From Sulfobacillus thermosulfidooxidans (lineage in GTDB: Bacteria; Bacillota; Sulfobacillia; Sulfobacillales; Sulfobacillaceae): 64,000 nt of DNA. The stretch is from positions 310,001-374,000 of the forward strand of contig NZ_LGRO01000001.1 of NCBI RefSeq assembly GCF_001280565.1, in the 5' to 3' direction. A model generated the notes under the pieces. The model was not told where the DNA came from and made no database searches. It saw only the letters and a list, made by a program, of their open reading frames with translations. Positions within the stretch are counted from its first letter, which is position 1, and each line of letters opens with the position of its first letter. Position numbers and translations under genes: made by a program. Shown here piece after piece: positions 2,231 to 11,300 of this stretch.

Positions 2231-3385
2231 TTACTCTTGAGTACCGGAAGCGCCGCGTCGTTTGAGCTTCAGCGTGTTCGTTTCGAACCGCTCTGGTTCA
2301 ACATGCGTCAGTGCCACAATCTCGTCCAGCGGAAGGGGCAGTTCATTGCGGAATTCCGTAAAAATGTCTATGTGGTCGCGATCAATAAGCTCCAAGGCTT
2401 GGCGAAATAATACCGGTTCTTCCACGTCCCATTCCGTATCAAACGGCTCGTTGTGACGCCATCTCCTAGCGTTGAGTTGTTTGAACAGTCGCCCGACATC
2501 TTCCTTGGAAAAGATCCCCAGTTGTTCTCCGCGTTGGATCATTGCCGCAATGGAGACCTTCCAACGCGGCTTAAGCCCCTGGAGAAACGACAAGGAAGGA
2601 ATCAGACATTCTTGACCGAACGTCTCGGCAGGCATGAGAAAGGCTCCCGCAAAATAGTCCGCTTCCTGTTCGATACGCTTGTGCTCTTTTTTCACGGTTT
2701 GTTCGTCTAATGTAGCATGAAGTACCATATGCCCCAATTCATGGGCCTCACTTAAACGTTGCCGTACCATCGAAACGCCTATCCGGCCTATCAGAATGAG
2801 AGGTCGCCGGTTTATCCACTGACTTCCCGCATCAATTGGCGCATCGGTAAACGGCCAGTGAGCGACAACGACACCATGATGCTCTAAGAGGCGCGTAACA
2901 TTCGAAATAGGTCCGTTTCCTAATTTCATGGCCCGACGGGTCGCTTGAGCCGCGGATTCGAGATCCTCGGGTGAATAAGGATATTCAGCATGAGTTATAG
3001 GCTGCAAGAATACAGGTGGCAGAGAAATCCATTGTTCGACTAAGTTCACGAGTTCGCTAAGCCATGACAGATAGCTATGCACAGGGCCCGCCTCTCTCAT
3101 CGAGGCACTAGTGCCTTTACGAAAAAACACCGCGCTCCTCCCATCACTTTGACCATGTACGGGCCAAAAGAAAAACGCTATCGGTCGGTTCAAAATTCTA
3201 CTCAACTTGCCTAAAATATCATCGGACGGAACCGTTAGCCCCAACTCGTATTGAGATATGACCTGTTTCGAAACTCCTAGTTCATCAGCAAGTTCCTGCA
3301 ACGTAAAGCGCCTCGCCAGACGTGCTTCGCGTAACCGCTGAGCAACAAACGGCTTTGATCTTGATATGAGTGTAGTCCGTATCAT
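2231..3385 (-). CDS. HTH-XRE / ImmA-IrrE (DUF955) metalloprotease-like regulator
   Basis: Encodes 384 aa. Residues 15-70 form an XRE-type helix-turn-helix (TLQELADELGVSKQVISQYE). The centre is an ImmA/IrrE peptidase domain with the zinc motif HELGH at 215-219 and a third ligand in EADYFAGAFLMP near 241. Related proteins cleave repressors or act as antitoxins. The start overlaps the stop of the upstream gene by 4 nt (ATGA), so the two are co-translated. An inverted repeat beside the operon promoter is a plausible self-operator. Confidence 0.85.
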   Translation of the reverse strand: MIRTTLISRSKPFVAQRLREARLARRFTLQELADELGVSKQVISQYELGLTVPSDDILGKLSRILNRPIAFFFWPVHGQSDGRSAVFFRKGTSASMREAGPVHSYLSWLSELVNLVEQWISLPPVFLQPITHAEYPYSPEDLESAAQATRRAMKLGNGPISNVTRLLEHHGVVVAHWPFTDAPIDAGSQWINRRPLILIGRIGVSMVRQRLSEAHELGHMVLHATLDEQTVKKEHKRIEQEADYFAGAFLMPAETFGQECLIPSLSFLQGLKPRWKVSIAAMIQRGEQLGIFSKEDVGRLFKQLNARRWRHNEPFDTEWDVEEPVLFRQALELIDRDHIDIFTEFRNELPLPLDEIVALTHVEPERFETNTLKLKRRGASGTQE

Positions 3386-3993
3386 GACGGGTTTTCCTCT
3401 GCTGAAGGCGGTTGAACCTTACTCTGCATGGGGAGTTTGTCAGGGGTTTCCTCTGGCAGCGCTCGGGGATTGATTTTCAAAGGACGCCGATCTGCCCATT
3501 GCTCATGGATCGGATGAGGAATTCCCACGAACACCGATTCTAAATACGGAGGCCTTCCCGTATAAGCCAAATAGGCCACAAGCGGGTCAGATGGATTTCT
3601 GGGAGGTGCCTCACTGAATAAGTCATTGCCCCACGATAGGTTCCATAACGCGCGTAATTCATCGCGATATCGCGATGGATAAGGGAAATTTTGGTCCTGA
3701 CCAATGAAACATTCTAGAAGAATCATTGCTGGCTCATGACACACGAGCATGAGACGTTTGAAACCGAAAGCCAGTTCATGATACTGAATAGAAAACGGTA
3801 ACTGATGAGCCTTAACAGCAGACTCCAAGGCTCTCGCCACATATAACCGCCTCACAGCGTTTAGGCTTTCGTTAAAATGGGGCTTGTCCACAGCGTCGTG
3901 TAATTCCTTCCATACTTGTTCATATGCGGAAGGAAGACTGTCCGCTAACGGTTGTACCAAATCAAGAGGGATTGGAAAACTATCACTTGACAA
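3382..3993 (-). CDS. Unknown partner of the ImmA/IrrE-like protein
   Basis: I place the start at TTG 3993 because GGAGGTGA lies 4 nt upstream; the frame is open further 5' but has no ribosome binding site there. The product is 203 aa, helical in the centre (HFNESLNAVRRLYVARALES) with a Pro-rich charged tail. I do not recognise a family. It is first in a two-gene operon with the HTH-ImmA/IrrE protein, an arrangement seen in toxin-antitoxin-like and phage-defence regulators, so it may be the regulated target. Confidence 0.65.
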   Translation of the reverse strand: MSSDSFPIPLDLVQPLADSLPSAYEQVWKELHDAVDKPHFNESLNAVRRLYVARALESAVKAHQLPFSIQYHELAFGFKRLMLVCHEPAMILLECFIGQDQNFPYPSRYRDELRALWNLSWGNDLFSEAPPRNPSDPLVAYLAYTGRPPYLESVFVGIPHPIHEQWADRRPLKINPRALPEETPDKLPMQSKVQPPSAEENPS

Positions 3994-4017
3994 AACGTCA
4001 CCTCCGGTGCGTTCTAA

Positions 4018-4065
4018 TTGACTTTCTTCTGTCAAGAGTATGCGAATTTTTACGAGGTTTGTCAA
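4018..4065 (-). promoter_or_regulatory. Sigma-A promoter and putative operator of the ImmA/IrrE operon
   Basis: On the minus strand TTGACA (4060-4065) and CATACT (4037-4042) are spaced by exactly 17 nt. Immediately downstream, TTGAC-N8-GTCAA (4018-4035) is a perfect inverted repeat across the start region, in the right place for repression by the operon's HTH protein. Confidence 0.7.
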
Positions 4066-4480
4066 GCGCAATCGGCGGGTCGACCTCACCTCATCAGCGC
4101 GGTCCTTACATTAACCGCTCTTCGCTTCTCTTAAATAAAGATAGGAAACCATGTTAAGCCGATAGTTCAAACACTTGCCGCCGCATGGAGTAGTCTGGCC
4201 ATTGCCATTGACTCGTCGGGGATAGACTCACAAGTATTATCAAATGGCACTTCCGTGCGGGTTCATATTTTGACGGAATGGGTCCAGAGTAATACATCAG
4301 CTATCCCAGTGACTAGTCTACTACGTTCATATGCGTATCAATCCTCAGTCAAACAAGTGGTCAACCGTGCCACACACCGGAGAATTGGCTTGAAGTTGAC
4401 TCCCGACGAGAGGGGTTTATTGATCTCGATACTCGCGTCAATCTTCTTCTGAAAACCCTCAACCTCCTTTCGGGCTTGCG
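4066..4480 (+). other. Gap with an open frame lacking a start
   Basis: A plus-strand frame stays open from about 4134 to 4452 (ending LTPDERGLLISILASIFF) but has no ATG near its 5' end and no ribosome binding site at the internal GTG (4255). It may be a 5'-truncated gene. I see no homology. Confidence 0.3.
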
Positions 4481-4542
4481 CAGGGACATCGCGCACGGCC
4501 TTTCATGAGGGGGTTGTGCGCGGTAGACCATGCCGAGTGACG

Positions 4543-5100
4543 TTACGGAGAGGTTAGAGGATGGAGAGAATGCCAATATGAAGGGGTGAGGGCTTGCGTA
4601 TGATGGGTGCTGTAATACGCGTTAAAATTGCTGATGTCCCACAGAATGTGCTGTTCCGCCAATACCGTATTGAGTGCTATCATCACCGTCATGGCCGCCC
4701 AGACATTGGTGATCATCCGCTGGGGTTGGCTGACGGCTTGGTGGCCACTGGCCGTGCCGGGTAATGATGTGGTGGTGTCGGTGAGAATATCGGGATAGAC
4801 CATGCCCACGGGCGGCAAGATCGTGGTGTTGTGGTGTCGATAGCCGATAACCACATGGCCGCCATAGCCGGATGTTTGCTGGACCGATTCGGGGTCTGTC
4901 GGCGGGGCGATGCCATCATTACCGGCATCGATATAGACGCCTTCGGGCCAAACCAGAAAGACCGGGTGGAGGATTTGGCGGGTCGGATGGTTATCGACAC
5001 AGCCGATGAGAAGGGGAAAGGACACGCCATAAGAAAACGCGGCGTGGTCGGGGGGAATCCAGGCATCGAAGTAAGCGTCAAACCATTTTTGGGGCGATTA
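4543..5100 (-). pseudogene. PRTRC-type ThiF (E1-like) remnant, copy 1
   Basis: The recognisable pieces are FDAWIPPDHAAFSYG, LLIGCVDNHPTRQIL, GGHVVIGYRHH, ILPPVGMVYPDIL and QRMITNVWAAMTVMIALNTV. These match the adenylation-fold layout of ThiF-family proteins, including the CVDN segment. The N-terminal part with the ATP-binding glycine loop and VDGDTVEPDN is missing, and an in-frame stop lies just upstream near 5090. It is homologous over several hundred bases to 10700-11110, in the same orientation. Confidence 0.6.
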
Positions 5101-5482: not shown

Positions 5483-5518
5483 ATGGAGATTTCTTTCTGG
5501 GTTGTCGGCGCAGCCTAA
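5483..5518 (+). CDS. 11-residue peptide, candidate RiPP precursor
   Basis: This 12-codon frame encodes MEISFWVVGAA and stops with TAA. GAGGAGGG sits 6 nt before the ATG, one of the best ribosome binding sites in the window. It lies 57 nt upstream of a radical SAM gene with a stem-loop between them, as precursor genes often do in ribosomal peptide operons. It has no leader or signal sequence, so if modified it resembles leaderless minimal precursors. It could instead be an attenuator leader peptide. Function is inferred from context only. Confidence 0.5.
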   Translation: MEISFWVVGAA

Positions 5519-5530
5519 ACGTATGACATA

Positions 5531-5556
5531 ACCAGGGCGGATACGTCCGTCCTGGT
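5531..5556 (+). terminator. Stem-loop between peptide and radical SAM gene
   Basis: ACCAGGGCGGA-TACG-TCCGTCCTGGT forms an 11-bp stem (one G-T pair) with a tetraloop. No U-run follows, so it is more likely an attenuator or RNA-stability element than a full terminator. It would favour the peptide transcript over the enzyme transcript. Confidence 0.6.
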
Positions 5557-5575
5557 CTTTCGGAAGGAGGATAAG

Positions 5576-6985
5576 ATGATCACATCATTGTCCGCTCCCT
5601 TTGAATCGTTTACGTATCCATTTTTTGATTTGAACTTTCATGCTCAGCATGATGAAGTCGTGAACGCATTTTTGAAAACACCCAGCCATTTCCCCGGGCT
5701 CAGAGGAATGTATATTCACGTACCCTTTTGCGAAACGTTATGTCATTTCTGTCCATTTTATAAGAACGTAGGGAATGACGAACGTATTGAGGCATATGTC
5801 CAAGCCTTGGAGACTGAATTACACCTGCGGTCTCAAGACCTCCGTGTAAGGCATTGGACATTCGATGCAATTTACTTTGGCGGCGGCACACCATCATTAT
5901 TGACTATTGCTCAGATCCGTCGACTCTTATGTGTCATTCGGAACTCCTTTTCGCTCTCGCCAGACTGCGAGATTTCGATGGAAATAGAAGTAAAGTCAAT
6001 CACTGAAGATAAACTTTTAGAGCTGAAAGATCTTGGTGTGACACGCGTGAGTTTTGGTGTGCAGACATTTAATCCTGACATGCGGAAATTTTTAAATCTG
6101 ACAGCAACTCTAGAGCAAGTGGATGCAGCGATTGCCGCTAGTACTCGCATTTTCCCACGGGCCAATAACATTGATTTAATTGTGGGTCTTCCGACTCAAA
6201 CAACGGCAGACATGTATACTGACTTAGACATCGCGATTCGTTGTGGAATTGACAGCTTATCCATTTATCCGATGGACTATATTATGACAACACCGCGTCT
6301 GATCGAATTGTTCCGTCAAGGAATAACACCTCTTCCTCCTACTGCATCTGCCATTATGCAGATGTTCTATGATGCGCGGAAATACCTGAAACAGCGCTGG
6401 TCGGAGGATAACACCTATTGCTATAGCCGTGAGGGAATCAGTCCTTGCCGATACATGTTCGATATCGTCTATGGAAATTATAGCAACGAATATATTGGAA
6501 TTGGCGCTAGTGCCTATAGTTTACTTCAAGGACTTGTTTATCAAAATGTACCGGATGAAAGAGAATACATCAGGCGCTTGCAGACTGGACTGTCCCCAGT
6601 TCATTTGTCGTCGCCGTATCATGCTTACGAGAAAGGTTTAGTGTTTTTTCCAAAAATCGGGCGTTATGACTTGAAAGATTTGCGTCGTTGGGATTATTTC
6701 GAGTTATATTCCGAGCGCCTCGAACGTTTGCGACATGAGGGCTTTGTGAAGATTATCGATGACATGATAACGTTGACATCCGCCGGTGAATTGCACTATG
6801 CACCGCTTATGCTTGAGTTCTTTTCCGACAATCAAAAACGACTGTATAATCGCATTTGGCGACGAGTGAGTACTCAATTGGGATGGAATGTTGAGACAGG
6901 GCGTCCGACTGACTGTGGTCCTGCTCACAAAAGCGTTGGCGGCCTTAGCGCGATGGCAATCCAATCTTTATCCCGAAGAACCTAG
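5576..6985 (+). CDS. HemW/HemN-like radical SAM enzyme
   Basis: Encodes 469 aa. Residues 52-59 contain the CxxxCxxC cluster motif (CETLCHFC) that binds the 4Fe-4S cluster used to split S-adenosylmethionine. IYFGGGTPSLL, RVSFGVQTFN, NIDLIVGLPTQT and YIGIGASAYS follow the coproporphyrinogen oxidase-like (HemW/HemN) pattern. HemN-like enzymes include methylases, cyclopropanases and haem-handling proteins, so substrate cannot be read off. No RRE or SPASM domain is apparent. GGAAGGAGG lies 5 nt upstream. The upstream mini-peptide and downstream exporter suggest peptide or small-molecule tailoring. Haem metabolism is the main alternative. Confidence 0.8.
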   Translation: MITSLSAPFESFTYPFFDLNFHAQHDEVVNAFLKTPSHFPGLRGMYIHVPFCETLCHFCPFYKNVGNDERIEAYVQALETELHLRSQDLRVRHWTFDAIYFGGGTPSLLTIAQIRRLLCVIRNSFSLSPDCEISMEIEVKSITEDKLLELKDLGVTRVSFGVQTFNPDMRKFLNLTATLEQVDAAIAASTRIFPRANNIDLIVGLPTQTTADMYTDLDIAIRCGIDSLSIYPMDYIMTTPRLIELFRQGITPLPPTASAIMQMFYDARKYLKQRWSEDNTYCYSREGISPCRYMFDIVYGNYSNEYIGIGASAYSLLQGLVYQNVPDEREYIRRLQTGLSPVHLSSPYHAYEKGLVFFPKIGRYDLKDLRRWDYFELYSERLERLRHEGFVKIIDDMITLTSAGELHYAPLMLEFFSDNQKRLYNRIWRRVSTQLGWNVETGRPTDCGPAHKSVGGLSAMAIQSLSRRT

Positions 6986-7022
6986 AAGAAGTGCTTTACC
7001 TGATTTTCGTTAATGAGGTGCA

Positions 7023-8288
7023 GTGACCAAGGAAGGTATCGATTTAAGGAGAAGAACAAAAGTGGGATGGTACAAACGTATCATAATAGAGCTCCCTCCT
7101 CCCTACTGGTTTATTTGGAGTGGCACACTGATTAATCAACTTGGAATGTTCGTTGCGCCGTTTTTCATGATCTATTTAACTCAAATCCGCCATGTTTCTG
7201 TCATGTATGCCGCAGCATCCCTTTCCGTGGTCGGCATCGGTAGGCTAGTCGCCGCACCCATTGGAGGAGTTATGGCGGATCGTTGGGGACGGCGTCCCAC
7301 AATAATCACAAGCCTCATCAGTGCCGCCTTTTGCACCCTCGGACTCGGGCTGGTTCCGACGGGAGCCATTCTCGATGGATTGGCTTTGATGTGGGGGTTT
7401 ACGAACAATGTGTTTCGGCCGGCGGCCCAGGCGGCCATTGTCGATCTGGTTGGGGAAGAACATCGACGTCAGGCCTTTGCCTTAAATTACTGGGCAGGCA
7501 ACATGGGGGTGGCCATTGGGCCGATGCTCGCGGGTCTCCTGATGCAATGGCACCCCACCGCCATGTTTTTTCTAGATGGGCTGACCACCTTGGTGTTTGC
7601 CATCCTGATGAGTCGGTGTGTGCTGCCCAGAGTGTCGACACAACGGTCTGATGGCTCTTTGCATTCGTGGCGTCACACCATGGATCAATTGCTCCATGAT
7701 CGGTTGTTGATCGGGCTCGCTATGTTGGCGTTCTTGTTTGCCATGGTATACTTTCAAAACACGTCCACGTTACCGGTGGTCATGCACGCACAGGGGCTCA
7801 CCGACGCCGATTATGGTCTGGCGATCGCGATGAACGGCGTGACCGTGTTAATATTCAGCCTGCCCATCAATGCTCTGATTCGGCACATGTCACCGGGACG
7901 GGCGATGAGCCTCGCGGCTCTGTTGCTGGGGACAGGATTTGGTTTGGTGGCTTTCGTCCATGGTGAAGGGATCATTATGATGACCGTGATGATCTGGACA
8001 CTGGGGGAAGTCATTGCCACGCCCGTCGCCGCGGCATGGATTGGGCAAATTAGCCCGCCGCATTTGCGCGGCACCTACCAAGGGATTTATGCGGCGGGAT
8101 GGGGTGCTGCCCAAATCTTGGGACCATTGGCGGGGGGAATCGTGTTGACGGCATGGGGGGATACCAATCTCTGGTTAATCTGTTTTGGGGTGGGATGCAT
8201 CGTTATGCTCGGGTATGGCACATTGACAATGTGGTCGCGAAATCGTTTGATGTCGGAATCCTCAACCTCTGGTAAACCAGTGTCTTAG
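7023..8288 (+). CDS. MFS efflux transporter
   Basis: This 421-aa protein has about 12 hydrophobic segments and the loop 2-3 MFS motif GGVMADRWGRRPT near residues 80-95. It resembles drug and metabolite exporters. The GTG at 7023 has GAGG 4 nt upstream; a GTG 14 codons later has AAGGAG and is a fair alternative. It lies 37 nt after the radical SAM gene and is presumably co-transcribed; it may export the product of that enzyme. Confidence 0.85.
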   Translation: MTKEGIDLRRRTKVGWYKRIIIELPPPYWFIWSGTLINQLGMFVAPFFMIYLTQIRHVSVMYAAASLSVVGIGRLVAAPIGGVMADRWGRRPTIITSLISAAFCTLGLGLVPTGAILDGLALMWGFTNNVFRPAAQAAIVDLVGEEHRRQAFALNYWAGNMGVAIGPMLAGLLMQWHPTAMFFLDGLTTLVFAILMSRCVLPRVSTQRSDGSLHSWRHTMDQLLHDRLLIGLAMLAFLFAMVYFQNTSTLPVVMHAQGLTDADYGLAIAMNGVTVLIFSLPINALIRHMSPGRAMSLAALLLGTGFGLVAFVHGEGIIMMTVMIWTLGEVIATPVAAAWIGQISPPHLRGTYQGIYAAGWGAAQILGPLAGGIVLTAWGDTNLWLICFGVGCIVMLGYGTLTMWSRNRLMSESSTSGKPVS

Positions 8289-8321
8289 CGGCGTTTTTAA
8301 TTAACAAAGGGGGAATAATGT

Positions 8322-8975
8322 ATGATCCTGCGAGAAGTAATCGAAAATGTATGGCGCTGGGAAACTCCGGATCCGGAAAACGATTGGATAATGGTTGGTC
8401 ATATGATAAAGACCGATCATGATATAGTCCTAATTGACCCGCCTTTCGTTCCGGCTTTGATTCCCACTATACAAAAGATTGGATCGCCAATCGCTGTTAT
8501 TCTGACCACGCATTATCATTCGCGGGGCGCACGAGTGCTTGGTCAAAAGTTGCAGTGTCCTGTTTATGTTCCGCAGCAAGCCGATCGGGAATATTTACAG
8601 GGTCGAAATCTTACAGATTTCACTGTCTATGGGGATAAAGATATCTTACCAGCGGGACTGCACGCCATACCTTGTGCAGTGAATGTCCCAGACGAACGTG
8701 ACCCGTCCAAAACAACCAAACTTGTCGACGAGATGTTGCTCCTTAGCCCAGCCCATCGCGCAATATTATGTGGCGACGTTATGGTTGGATCCCAGGACGG
8801 TGTGCTGGGATGTCCTGAAGGCTTTACCGATGATCCGAATTTTACGCAAGTCATGGCGTCATTACGAACTGTCGATCAAATCGGAGTGGCAAATATGGCC
8901 GACACTTTGTTACCGGGACACGGTCTTGACATTATCGGAAGTTTTTCTACAGCACTTTCTGCTCGACTATCTTAG
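8322..8975 (+). CDS. MBL-fold protein with degenerate metal motif
   Basis: Encodes 217 aa with the metallo-beta-lactamase order: strand pairs, IVLIDPPF, then TTHYHSRGA where HxHxDH is expected, CGDVMVG, and LPGHG near the end. The Asp and last His of the first motif are absent, so metal binding may be altered or lost. A GGGGGA ribosome binding site precedes the ATG. It is the last gene of the plus-strand cluster and overlaps the convergent regulator's 3' end by 4 nt. Confidence 0.65.
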   Translation: MILREVIENVWRWETPDPENDWIMVGHMIKTDHDIVLIDPPFVPALIPTIQKIGSPIAVILTTHYHSRGARVLGQKLQCPVYVPQQADREYLQGRNLTDFTVYGDKDILPAGLHAIPCAVNVPDERDPSKTTKLVDEMLLLSPAHRAILCGDVMVGSQDGVLGCPEGFTDDPNFTQVMASLRTVDQIGVANMADTLLPGHGLDIIGSFSTALSARLS

Positions 8976-10138
8976 AAAAACCGAATTAATAACTGCCAGG
9001 CGGCCGAAAAACGCCTCTCATAATTGTCGCCAATCCTGAGAGACAACATGGGTTCATCTTGGAGCCTCGGCCAGCGATGAATCCGTCCTAAAGTGGCCAT
9101 GGTAGCAAAGTCCAGGATATCCCTCTGATGAGTGAGACAGCGAAACTTCTCATATGTTTTGGCAGCCTGATCCCACTTTTCTGAGAGGCCTTCGATTAAG
9201 CATTTTTCGGCTAATGAAGCAGCATATTGACGGGTCGAGGGCATCCTGTGCATGGTGAGCGCATCGCGAATTGTGATCTCTGCGTCGGTCAGATTTCCTG
9301 TTTGCCGATAGAGTACGCCTAAGTTATGGAGTAGTCGACCTTGTAAATTCGGAAAAGATGTTGTAGCCCTCTGCAGTCGCTTCATCGCAGTCAGGACGGT
9401 TTCTGGACCATGAATGGCCCATCGACAGATCAATTGACCCAATTGCACTTCGTAACCCAATGAAGGGTGATCCCTTAAGTCGTGTACAACATTGAAAGCC
9501 ATCCATGCTTCATGATAATTGTGCAATTCCAACAAAACTTGTCCTTCTGTATACCAAGATAATTGATATTCCTTTTGACGGTTTAATTCCTCAAAAATGT
9601 TGCGCGCTTTTCGAATAAAGTGGAGACTAGCGACGTGATCGTGGCCCGCTAACGCCGCCGTTAGTCCACAATTGTAGAGAGCTATAGCCTTTCGAAAGCT
9701 AATAGGGGTTCGTGTCAAAGCAGCAAGCATTTGGGAGAACCAAAAATACGCCGATTGAAAATCTTGTTTTTTCACATGAATCTTCCCCAAAGCATGATAA
9801 ACATAACTATTATAACGTCCATCGTATTGCGACCGACTCATATGCAGCGCGGTTTGGGCGACAGTTTCTGCCGGTTCAGTTAGTCCATAATCCAGCAAAT
9901 GTTCGGCGAGGCGGCATAAATTTAAAGGAGACGGTCCACTTATCAGATACAAGTCGATCCAGTCTGAAACGGACCATGTGAACAATTTTGTCATTTTCAC
10001 AAGAAGTTCCGGAGATGGATTACGTGTTCCGTTTTCAATCGCTGAGATGTGAGATCGGGTTACGTGCAATTGTCGGGCCATTTCGGCCCGAGACCATCCG
10101 TGAGCGAGACGGTGCTTGTTAATGAGATGATGGAGCAC
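8972..10138 (-). CDS. HTH-TPR regulator, RRNPP-like peptide receptor
   Basis: I start it at GTG 10138, preceded at 5 nt by GGAGGGAG, giving 388 aa. The N-terminus is an XRE helix-turn-helix (SRAEMARQLHVTRSHISAIE). The rest is a chain of TPR-like helical pairs (YHALGKIHVKKQDFQSAYFW, HNLGVLYRQTGNLTDAEITI). This is the build of RRNPP receptors (PlcR, NprR, PrgX, Rgg-like), which bind short secreted peptides re-imported into the cell. It points at the radical SAM operon and is divergent from a small exported pro-peptide gene, as expected for a receptor-pheromone pair. Confidence 0.75.
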   Translation of the reverse strand: MLHHLINKHRLAHGWSRAEMARQLHVTRSHISAIENGTRNPSPELLVKMTKLFTWSVSDWIDLYLISGPSPLNLCRLAEHLLDYGLTEPAETVAQTALHMSRSQYDGRYNSYVYHALGKIHVKKQDFQSAYFWFSQMLAALTRTPISFRKAIALYNCGLTAALAGHDHVASLHFIRKARNIFEELNRQKEYQLSWYTEGQVLLELHNYHEAWMAFNVVHDLRDHPSLGYEVQLGQLICRWAIHGPETVLTAMKRLQRATTSFPNLQGRLLHNLGVLYRQTGNLTDAEITIRDALTMHRMPSTRQYAASLAEKCLIEGLSEKWDQAAKTYEKFRCLTHQRDILDFATMATLGRIHRWPRLQDEPMLSLRIGDNYERRFSAAWQLLIRFF

Positions 10139-10229
10139 TGTGACTCCCTCCGATATTCGTGATGGTGTCCTATCCAATAACTGCTCTATAAGGAACATTG
10201 TACATCAAGTGAGGAGGTTAATTCGATTA

Positions 10230-10391
10230 ATGCCACGTAGTAAGAGATTCATCACAATAATAGGCTTTATCATCATAGTGCTTTGGTTTCCAGTACATCA
10301 TCCACATAACACGAGAATAAGTCATAATTTTCTATTAGTCAGTTCATCTAATCCGCAAAACGCCAACGGCCCGGATCCCGTTATCCTATAA
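10230..10391 (+). CDS. Candidate secreted pro-pheromone for the HTH-TPR regulator
   Basis: Encodes 53 aa. The N-terminus MPRSKRFITIIGFIIIVLWF is a basic cap plus hydrophobic core, like a signal peptide. The rest is polar and ends NANGPDPVIL, similar in character to the C-terminal signal of NprX-type peptides. GAGGAGG lies upstream, with a long 12-nt spacing. It starts 91 bp from and divergent to the receptor-like gene. In RRNPP systems the last 5-10 residues are usually the active peptide; that processing is inference. Confidence 0.6.
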   Translation: MPRSKRFITIIGFIIIVLWFPVHHPHNTRISHNFLLVSSSNPQNANGPDPVIL

Positions 10392-10449: not shown

Positions 10450-10682
10450 TCAGCTTCGCGACCAATTGCTATCATGGGGTCTGTTCGCGGTCGGACTCGG
10501 CCCGGTCAATCTAAACGCCATGACCAAATCGACGCCGATGGCGAGCATCTGTCGGTTGCGCCGGGGCCCGGCGCCCCGCCAGTGATGATCGTCGCATCGG
10601 CGGGCACCCGCTGGATGAACGTCATAATGGGCCGGATATCGGTCCAATGGCGGCTGCCACAAATCAAAATGCGTAAGGACAT
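10450..10682 (-). pseudogene. SLOG/DUF2493 remnant, copy 2
   Basis: MSLRILICGSRHWTDIRPIM and ATIITGGAP match the gene at 1572-1979. About 34 codons after the glycine loop are deleted, and the reading frame breaks before NRQMLAIGVDLVMAF. It lies directly after the second ThiF remnant, so the two once formed a neighbouring pair. Confidence 0.65.
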
Positions 10683-10768
10683 TGGCGGTCTCCTTTCGTA
10701 TACGCATAGGAACATCGCTCACGGTCTCTCATCAGGGGGTCGTGCGCGATAAACCGTGACGCATCGCG

Positions 10769-11300
10769 TCATGGCAAGATGAGAGGCTTAAGAGCATGCC
10801 AATATGAGGGGGTCAGAACTTGGATATGGTGCGTGCTATAATACGTGTTAAAATTGCTCACGTGCCACAGAATCTGTTGTTCGGCCAATAACGCAGTGAG
10901 GGCACTCATCACCGTCATGGCCGCCCAGACATTGGTCAGCATCCGATGGGGTTGGGCCACCGTGTCGATATAGATGCCTTCGGGCCAGCGCAGAAAAATC
11001 TGGTGGAGAATTTGGCGGGTCGCGTGGTTATCGACACAACCGATGAGAAGGGGAAAGGGCACGCCATAAGAAAATGCGGCGTGGTCGGGGGGAATCCACG
11101 CGTCGAACGCAGTAGGACCGTGCAGATAGTCGGAGATAGCCCAAATGGGACGATGATAGAGACTGTCAAAACGTTCAGCCAAGACCGCCGCTTTCAAGCG
11201 GTCCATATCTTAGGTAAAAAGTGTTGGCGGTGCAAATTGTCCGGTTCCACGGTATCGCCATCGACGAGCGTGAGTTTAAAGCAGCGGGCTGTGGGATGAC
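10769..11300 (-). pseudogene. PRTRC-type ThiF remnant, copy 2
   Basis: This copy keeps part of the N-terminal region missing from copy 1: LTLVDGDTVEPDNLHRQHF, which marks the E1-like adenylation fold. A frameshift near 11210 separates it from LKAAVLAERFDSLYHRPIW and LLIGCVDNHATRQIL. The middle segment (GGHVVIGYRHH in copy 1) is deleted. ThiF members of PRTRC clusters have no known reaction; this one is clearly dead. Confidence 0.65.

Follow-up and report, generated by a model that had tools for sequence, protein, structure and literature searches.

The stretch of DNA analysed here, called the window throughout, comprises 64,000 nucleotides of Sulfobacillus thermosulfidooxidans (contig NZ_LGRO01000001.1, positions 310,001 to 374,000). 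Six genes occupy about 5 kb of it, between positions 5483 and 10391, and the original prediction had described them as a quorum-regulated system in which a radical S-adenosylmethionine (SAM) enzyme modifies a peptide; all six genes are present where they had been predicted. Four of them follow one another on the forward strand: an open reading frame (ORF) of 11 codons for the peptide MEISFWVVGAA (5483-5518), a gene for a HemN/HutW-like radical SAM enzyme of 469 amino acids (5576-6985), a gene for a predicted exporter of the major facilitator superfamily (MFS; 7023-8288; MFS_1, 8e-46), and a gene for a protein resembling the metallo-β-lactamase (MBL) fold, with weak MBL profile matches and a degenerate metal motif (8322-8975). 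Convergent with these, on the reverse strand, lies a gene for a regulator with a helix-turn-helix (HTH) and tetratricopeptide repeats (TPR) (8972-10138), and divergent from this regulator, again on the forward strand, a 53-codon ORF for a putative propeptide (10230-10391).

The peptide gene reads ATG GAG ATT TCT TTC TGG GTT GTC GGC GCA GCC TAA, with the Shine-Dalgarno (SD) sequence GAGGAGG before its start. When the enzyme was searched for in 121 genomes, the organism's own and 120 relatives, only one further carrier was found, a contig (L004) of a Sulfobacillus benefaciens metagenome-assembled genome. There, a radical SAM gene whose product is 75% identical to the window enzyme is preceded, at the same position, by GTG AAG GTT TCG TTC TGG GCT GCA GGA GCT GCC TAA, which encodes MKVSFWAAGAA, so that the predicted pairing of an 11-residue peptide with a radical SAM gene is conserved. 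The ribosome-binding site GAGGAGGGAT is invariant between the two sequences, and the residues S, F, W, G, A and A are kept together with the stop, three of them with synonymous codon changes. Because of these synonymous changes, and of the enrichment of SD-preceded short ORFs with tryptophan described below, we consider the peptide conserved beyond chance and, on this comparison, the 11-codon gene to be real. An MFS gene follows the enzyme gene in L004 as well, where it is truncated by transposase-like sequence at the contig end.

The enzyme was expected to be HemN-like and not of the SPASM type, and profile searches agree: Radical_SAM was its only Pfam domain (1.3e-21), SPASM gave no match, and the top NCBIfam models were those of HutW, HemN and HemW. 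It thus differs from the SPASM-type enzymes of the streptococcal Rgg-controlled radical SAM peptides. Among structures in the PDB its closest relative was HemN (1olt), followed by the class C methyltransferase NocN (7.6e-18), and the two marks of class C, a HemN-like sequence and a CxxxCxxC motif (C52xxxC56xxC59), are both present.

A tblastn search of plasmids gave relatives of about 30% identity in Cytobacillus, Alicyclobacillus, Klebsiella and Glaesserella, where they adjoin MFS genes; further queries added Xenorhabdus, whose plasmid record names the enzyme 'hutW'. A six-enzyme profile, run on a sample of 398 genomes belonging to the class of genome G141 (inferred to be Bacilli), found members in 11 of them, at 430-555 bits. 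In a maximum-likelihood tree of 25 family members with haem HutW and HemW, for which the program warned of long branches joining, the 25 enzymes formed one clade (100/99 support) apart from haem HutW and HemW; within it the window and L004 enzymes branched first, and then two sub-clades. Two weaker genome matches (G337 and G360) were true haem HutW, and were rejected as members and used as outgroup; relatives on viral contigs (L012-L014) were rejected as HemW-type, and scans of viral contigs with three further queries gave no match.

Most of these enzymes are accompanied by short peptide genes. Upstream of the plasmid relatives we found SD-preceded, unannotated ORFs, ultrashort in the case of MKKEWVALKNEWVAL and MRDIVWDIVW, and longer in that of MENAIELFVSRKNEEHYDFNNVAW and MESAMELFEVDINDCDLQGLCMW. 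At the loci of the 11 genomes the peptides are MRQVNEWVAL, MRQSTEWFTV, MSNEWISVKNEWIAV (two genes), MREWIVVAA, MREWIIVAA, MKQWIVVAAE, MMQKWLPVVEWISVVVVE, MSWIIHERNWIIIEN, MEKNWIIAVERNWIVVQERNWIIVAA and MEKNSWIINVEKNSWIINERNWIVVQERNWIIVAV, and on the 3' side of the enzyme lie genes for MREWIVVVEN, MREWIIVVEN, MREWIVIVEN, MRKDWLVVV, and MENQPIIWKNVEPIIWKNAAEPIIWNNEVAPIIW with MERNILIIW. SD-preceded short tryptophan peptides were present in 17 of the 25 loci, in many cases with the core repeated in tandem or with more than one gene, and one feature of a ribosomally synthesised and post-translationally modified peptide (RiPP), an encoded precursor beside a modifying enzyme, is found in that number. 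The leader-core layout that is usual, although not universal, among RiPPs was not seen: at many loci the peptides are only 9-15 residues long, and in several of these the core is repeated; the precursor genes span about 30-110 nt in most, and a shared N-terminal stretch (ME[NS]A[IM]ELF) occurs in the Glaesserella and Xenorhabdus precursors only. All loci but L074 have an MFS gene with the enzyme (in L079 its ORF is 8548-9789). The outcome that had been named as fatal to the original prediction, that the genes never co-occur, is excluded by this neighbourhood survey for the peptide, radical SAM and MFS genes.

The enrichment was measured by scanning the 400 nt upstream for ORFs of 8-36 amino acids having an ATG or GTG start, an SD sequence and at least one tryptophan, a rule drafted after the first peptides were known. 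Such an ORF was found in 13 of 22 loci; 300 dinucleotide shuffles averaged 1.4 and reached at most 6, and the rate among 1646 genomic control windows was 3.6%. The loci are partly kin by descent, so that the binomial tail overstates the enrichment; the positives are spread over Sulfobacillus, Cytobacillus, Alicyclobacillus and those coded f194, f189 and f205. Furthermore, in one enzyme sub-clade the tryptophan comes first and hydrophobic residues follow ([EN]W[IV][IV], also [EN]W[IV][IV]V/A, and EWVAL), while in the other the hydrophobic residues precede a tryptophan that is mostly C-terminal (DIVW, PIIW, NVAW, CMW); SFWVVGAA of the window is of the W-first kind. That the orientation of the motif tracks the enzyme sub-clade favours a substrate relationship, and the short peptides are likely the substrates of the enzymes.

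Between the peptide and enzyme genes of the window, on the forward strand, the sequences ACCAGGGCGGA and TCCGTCCTGGT form a strong predicted hairpin (5531-5556; intergenic fold -23.5 kcal/mol, z -3.5), and the other loci that were folded have a stem of different sequence at the equivalent position. RiPP operons commonly have such stems behind the precursor gene, where they would favour precursor over enzyme, and the hairpin is likely an operon-tuning element. The upstream position of the short ORFs, their tryptophan content and the hairpin that in most loci precedes the enzyme gene would fit cis-acting leader peptides (attenuators), which would govern radical SAM and MFS expression in response, for example, to tryptophan or an antibiotic, and would not be substrates. 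Attenuation, however, agrees poorly with cores repeated in tandem within one ORF, with several peptide genes per locus, and with the loci L074 and L078, whose peptide genes lie only downstream of the radical SAM or MFS gene; nor would it lead the motif orientation to follow the enzyme sub-clade, and the main stem in the window leaves the SD sequence of the enzyme gene uncovered. We regard it as unlikely.

Slightly less probable still is a haem or porphyrin enzyme of the HutW, HemN or HemW type beside which the peptide would be incidental. These are indeed the best NCBIfam models, but the window enzyme falls well short of all curated cut-offs, reaching half or less of those for HutW and HemN (200 bits against 400 for the HutW model TIGR04107, 145 against 325 for HemN), and a separate HemW-like gene in the same genome scores equally high on the HutW model. 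A HutW/ChuW enzyme would be expected above 400 bits and among haem-utilisation genes, as at the true haem HutW loci with their flavodoxin-like and TonB-receptor-like neighbours, whereas the window enzyme is flanked by the peptide and MFS genes. Haem HutW relatives are excluded from the clade and score 208-216 bits on the six-enzyme profile, compared with the 430-555 bits of the Bacilli members, and a haem function would leave the conserved tryptophan peptides and the MFS gene unexplained.

The second part of the prediction concerned the convergent HTH-TPR regulator and a pro-pheromone gene, both of which are present. The regulator (HTH_3, 3.5e-13, and TPR matches) most likely starts at the GTG at 10138 (SD sequence GGAGGGAG, minus strand), and not at 10198, to which the longest ORF extends. 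About 91 bp separate this start from the divergent propeptide gene, the product of which has an N-terminal segment of export type, as judged from hydrophobicity only, and ends in NANGPDPVIL, the proposed pheromone. No paralogue of the regulator was found in the organism's own genome, and homologues are present in 9 of the 120 relatives. In three of these, L099 (a Sulfobacillus; 6904-8300), L100 (4295-5789) and L101 (4394-5854), a divergent small ORF with a hydrophobic N-terminus stands at the equivalent place, with the C-termini ...STGPAPIMLGTRQA (TGPAPIML) in L099 and ...EPNGPLPPQPM in L100 and L101; these pairs and the window share a C-terminal code, derived in the present analysis, that is [N/T]GPxP-like. 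No such ORF was found beside the homologues in L102-L104, two of which (L103, 3918-6373; L104, 4560-6976) carry tandem HTH-TPR pairs of the same family, and no radical SAM cluster was recognised beside those in L099-L102. The receptor of 388 amino acids lies within the published 250-500 of RRNPP receptors with HTH and TPR domains (PMC10075063), and, as in RRNPP systems, it adjoins a propeptide with a recurring C-terminal code. In the Alicyclobacillus plasmid locus, an unrelated HTH-TPR gene, whose 3' end is overlapped by a small hydrophobic ORF of its own, also lies by the radical SAM gene. The predicted quorum regulation is therefore upheld in that a receptor/propeptide module recurs and pairs with the enzyme family in two loci, but it is not a feature of the whole family. 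Quorum control of the window cluster is plausible from its gene arrangement, and on balance we favour control by the adjacent HTH-TPR protein. The modified tryptophan peptide itself might instead be the signal, being exported by an MFS protein and, with 9-11 residues, similar to leaderless communication peptides (8-10 amino acids, PMC13361665), but this is improbable, as the divergent propeptide with its recurring C-terminal code is the better candidate and stays with receptors of this family at loci in which no radical SAM cluster was recognised.

The MBL-like protein was predicted to have a broken metal motif. Of the 121 genomes searched, 22 have homologues, the organism's own genome carrying a second copy, and the DH of HxHxDH is absent from all 14 aligned Sulfobacillia homologues, which mostly read THDHTRGA (TTHYHSRGA in the window); the degenerate motif is, in this alignment, a trait of this Sulfobacillia protein family. 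The AlphaFold model (pLDDT 34) was too poor for a structure search. The broken motif thus holds, but membership of the cluster is not conserved, and the gene is best read as a recruited Sulfobacillia paralogue; its role is probably accessory, in tailoring or self-protection or as a passenger. Overall, the original prediction is borne out in part: its core, a previously undescribed HemN-like enzyme that works on an ultrashort peptide beside an MFS exporter, has strong support from co-occurrence across a broad family, but the MBL-like part is not conserved and the quorum arm is not family-wide.

Together, this evidence leads us to propose, with good confidence, that the cassette belongs to a new RiPP family in which a HemN-like (class C-type) radical SAM enzyme modifies the tryptophan region of leaderless, or nearly leaderless, peptides, which are then exported. 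As its conservation indicates, a separate gene provides an 11-residue peptide with tryptophan followed by small hydrophobic residues, the place of which is taken elsewhere by [EN]W[IV][IV]V/A or, in the sister clade, by PIIW or DIVW. The enzyme would recognise this short peptide directly, no long leader being needed, and introduce a carbon-centred change, rather likely at or beside the tryptophan. Its relatedness to HutW and to the class C radical SAM methyltransferases makes C-methylation with a second SAM the likeliest single chemistry, although a cross-link and other changes are together more probable. The product, trimmed or untrimmed, would probably leave through the adjacent MFS transporter, and in this genome the RRNPP-type HTH-TPR receptor would govern transcription by sensing a re-imported C-terminal fragment of the propeptide (approximately GPDPVIL), which would tie production of the compound to high cell density.

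Several observations weigh against this proposal. L004 stops within the MFS gene, which leaves the window as the one example of the cassette's 3' half, and our search found no such peptide at L070, L071, L075 or L079-L082. The Klebsiella plasmid has directly upstream of the cluster a sequence which we take, from its letters, to be IS1-like. Only the window and the Alicyclobacillus locus combine the cluster with an HTH-TPR gene, and the two regulators are not orthologous. Finally, AlphaFold models of two of the enzymes were poor (pLDDT 46), too low for a structure search or a view of substrate binding.

Other genes accompany the family in particular lineages. P450 genes were found only in the Klebsiella and Glaesserella clusters. 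In the Klebsiella pneumoniae plasmid (L008, 4908-9910) the radical SAM, P450 and MFS genes have an ISL3 transposase inside them, and the cluster is probably decayed; when E. coli genomes were compared with this stretch, the matches listed were to the ISL3 transposase only. Genes of the AdoMet (S-adenosylmethionine) decarboxylase family lie between the peptide and radical SAM genes in Glaesserella (L009, 1336-1725) and in Xenorhabdus, where an ornithine decarboxylase follows (L011, 4463-4945 and 7570-9765), and decarboxylated SAM or a polyamine may be used on these peptides. In the L079-L082 sub-clade a B12-type radical SAM-like gene lies upstream, and at those of its loci that were read an oligopeptide-binding-like protein is encoded downstream, both named from their sequences; MDWQGNITPTIW of L082 was rejected as a precursor as it lies inside the upstream B12-type gene. 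Instead of an MBL-like gene, four Bacilli loci of clade A (L006, 8607-9089; L068; L069; L072) have a DinB-family gene close to that of the MFS protein; three of these genes were recognised by Pfam and that of L068 by similarity to L006, and they possibly serve self-protection.

In its widest form, which we favour by a modest degree, the proposal is of a new RiPP class, shared by Bacilli and Gammaproteobacteria in part by way of plasmids, whose HemN-type enzymes act on leaderless peptides of 9-15 residues or on tandem tryptophan cores, with one clade for W-hydrophobic-hydrophobic and another for hydrophobic-hydrophobic-W, clade-specific partners (P450, AdoMet decarboxylase, B12-radical SAM) elaborating the tryptophan, and here quorum control by a new, [N/T]GPxP-like type of pheromone. 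Streptococcal radical SAM RiPPs under Rgg/SHP control (tryglysin and streptide among others) likewise combine a radical SAM enzyme, a short precursor, an exporter and an HTH-TPR regulator with an adjacent hydrophobic propeptide, and groups I and II of Rgg/SHP have the divergent receptor-propeptide arrangement of the window (PMC13361665); in contrast, the present enzyme is HemN/HutW-like without SPASM, the precursor has no leader-core layout, and the family extends over Bacilli and plasmids of Gammaproteobacteria. The class C methyltransferases TbtI and NosN/NocN are also HemN-like and act on RiPP precursors or side rings (class: PMC11285071), but these are thiopeptide tailoring enzymes, whereas here enzyme and exporter are the sole constant genes and the proposed substrate is an ultrashort peptide. 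The anaerobic haem-degrading methyltransferase HutW/ChuW, the best curated model (TIGR04107), shares the CxxxCxxC core; the window enzyme differs in its score below the cut-off, its separate clade and the lack of haem-uptake neighbours. In biarylitides, which are modified by a P450 and whose precursor is the shortest reported among RiPPs (PMC12951456), an ultrashort precursor also lies beside the modifying enzyme, but the chemistry is that of a P450 and not of a radical SAM enzyme, which is the constant one here. Finally, RRNPP control has been inferred for 196 biosynthetic clusters (PMC10075063), with HTH and TPR receptors that likewise adjoin a small ORF with a hydrophobic N-terminus; the main text of that study does not name Sulfobacillus, Alicyclobacillus or radical SAM. 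In the open-access literature we found no description of HemN-like enzymes with ultrashort precursors, of HutW with RiPPs, or of Sulfobacillus quorum-sensing peptides, and the family of peptide natural products is apparently undescribed, although a prior description elsewhere is possible.

If this is correct, a family of natural products has been overlooked because its precursor genes are too short to annotate and its enzyme is easily named a haem enzyme. With it one could test directly how peptides that have no leader are recognised by a radical SAM enzyme; it might contain new tryptophan chemistry, and would provide a motif for finding further genes. For Sulfobacillus, a biomining organism, it would mean quorum sensing by peptides, with a code that can already be proposed.

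An Rfam scan gave two matches only, both sub-threshold and taken as chance; within the regulator gene (9105-9151), a sub-threshold match to a hammerhead ribozyme (23.7 bits against 48.5, E 0.13) is probably due to chance. The GC content of the cassette is lower (0.470 compared with 0.526; 0.443 in the radical SAM gene), which suggests horizontal acquisition. The cassette lies between two direct copies of one gene region, which are diverged (79-90% identity) and pair 4464-5070 with 10690-11107 and 1859-1992 with 10562-10695; the left copy is interrupted by an HTH-ImmA/IrrE gene and its neighbour (2231-4089).

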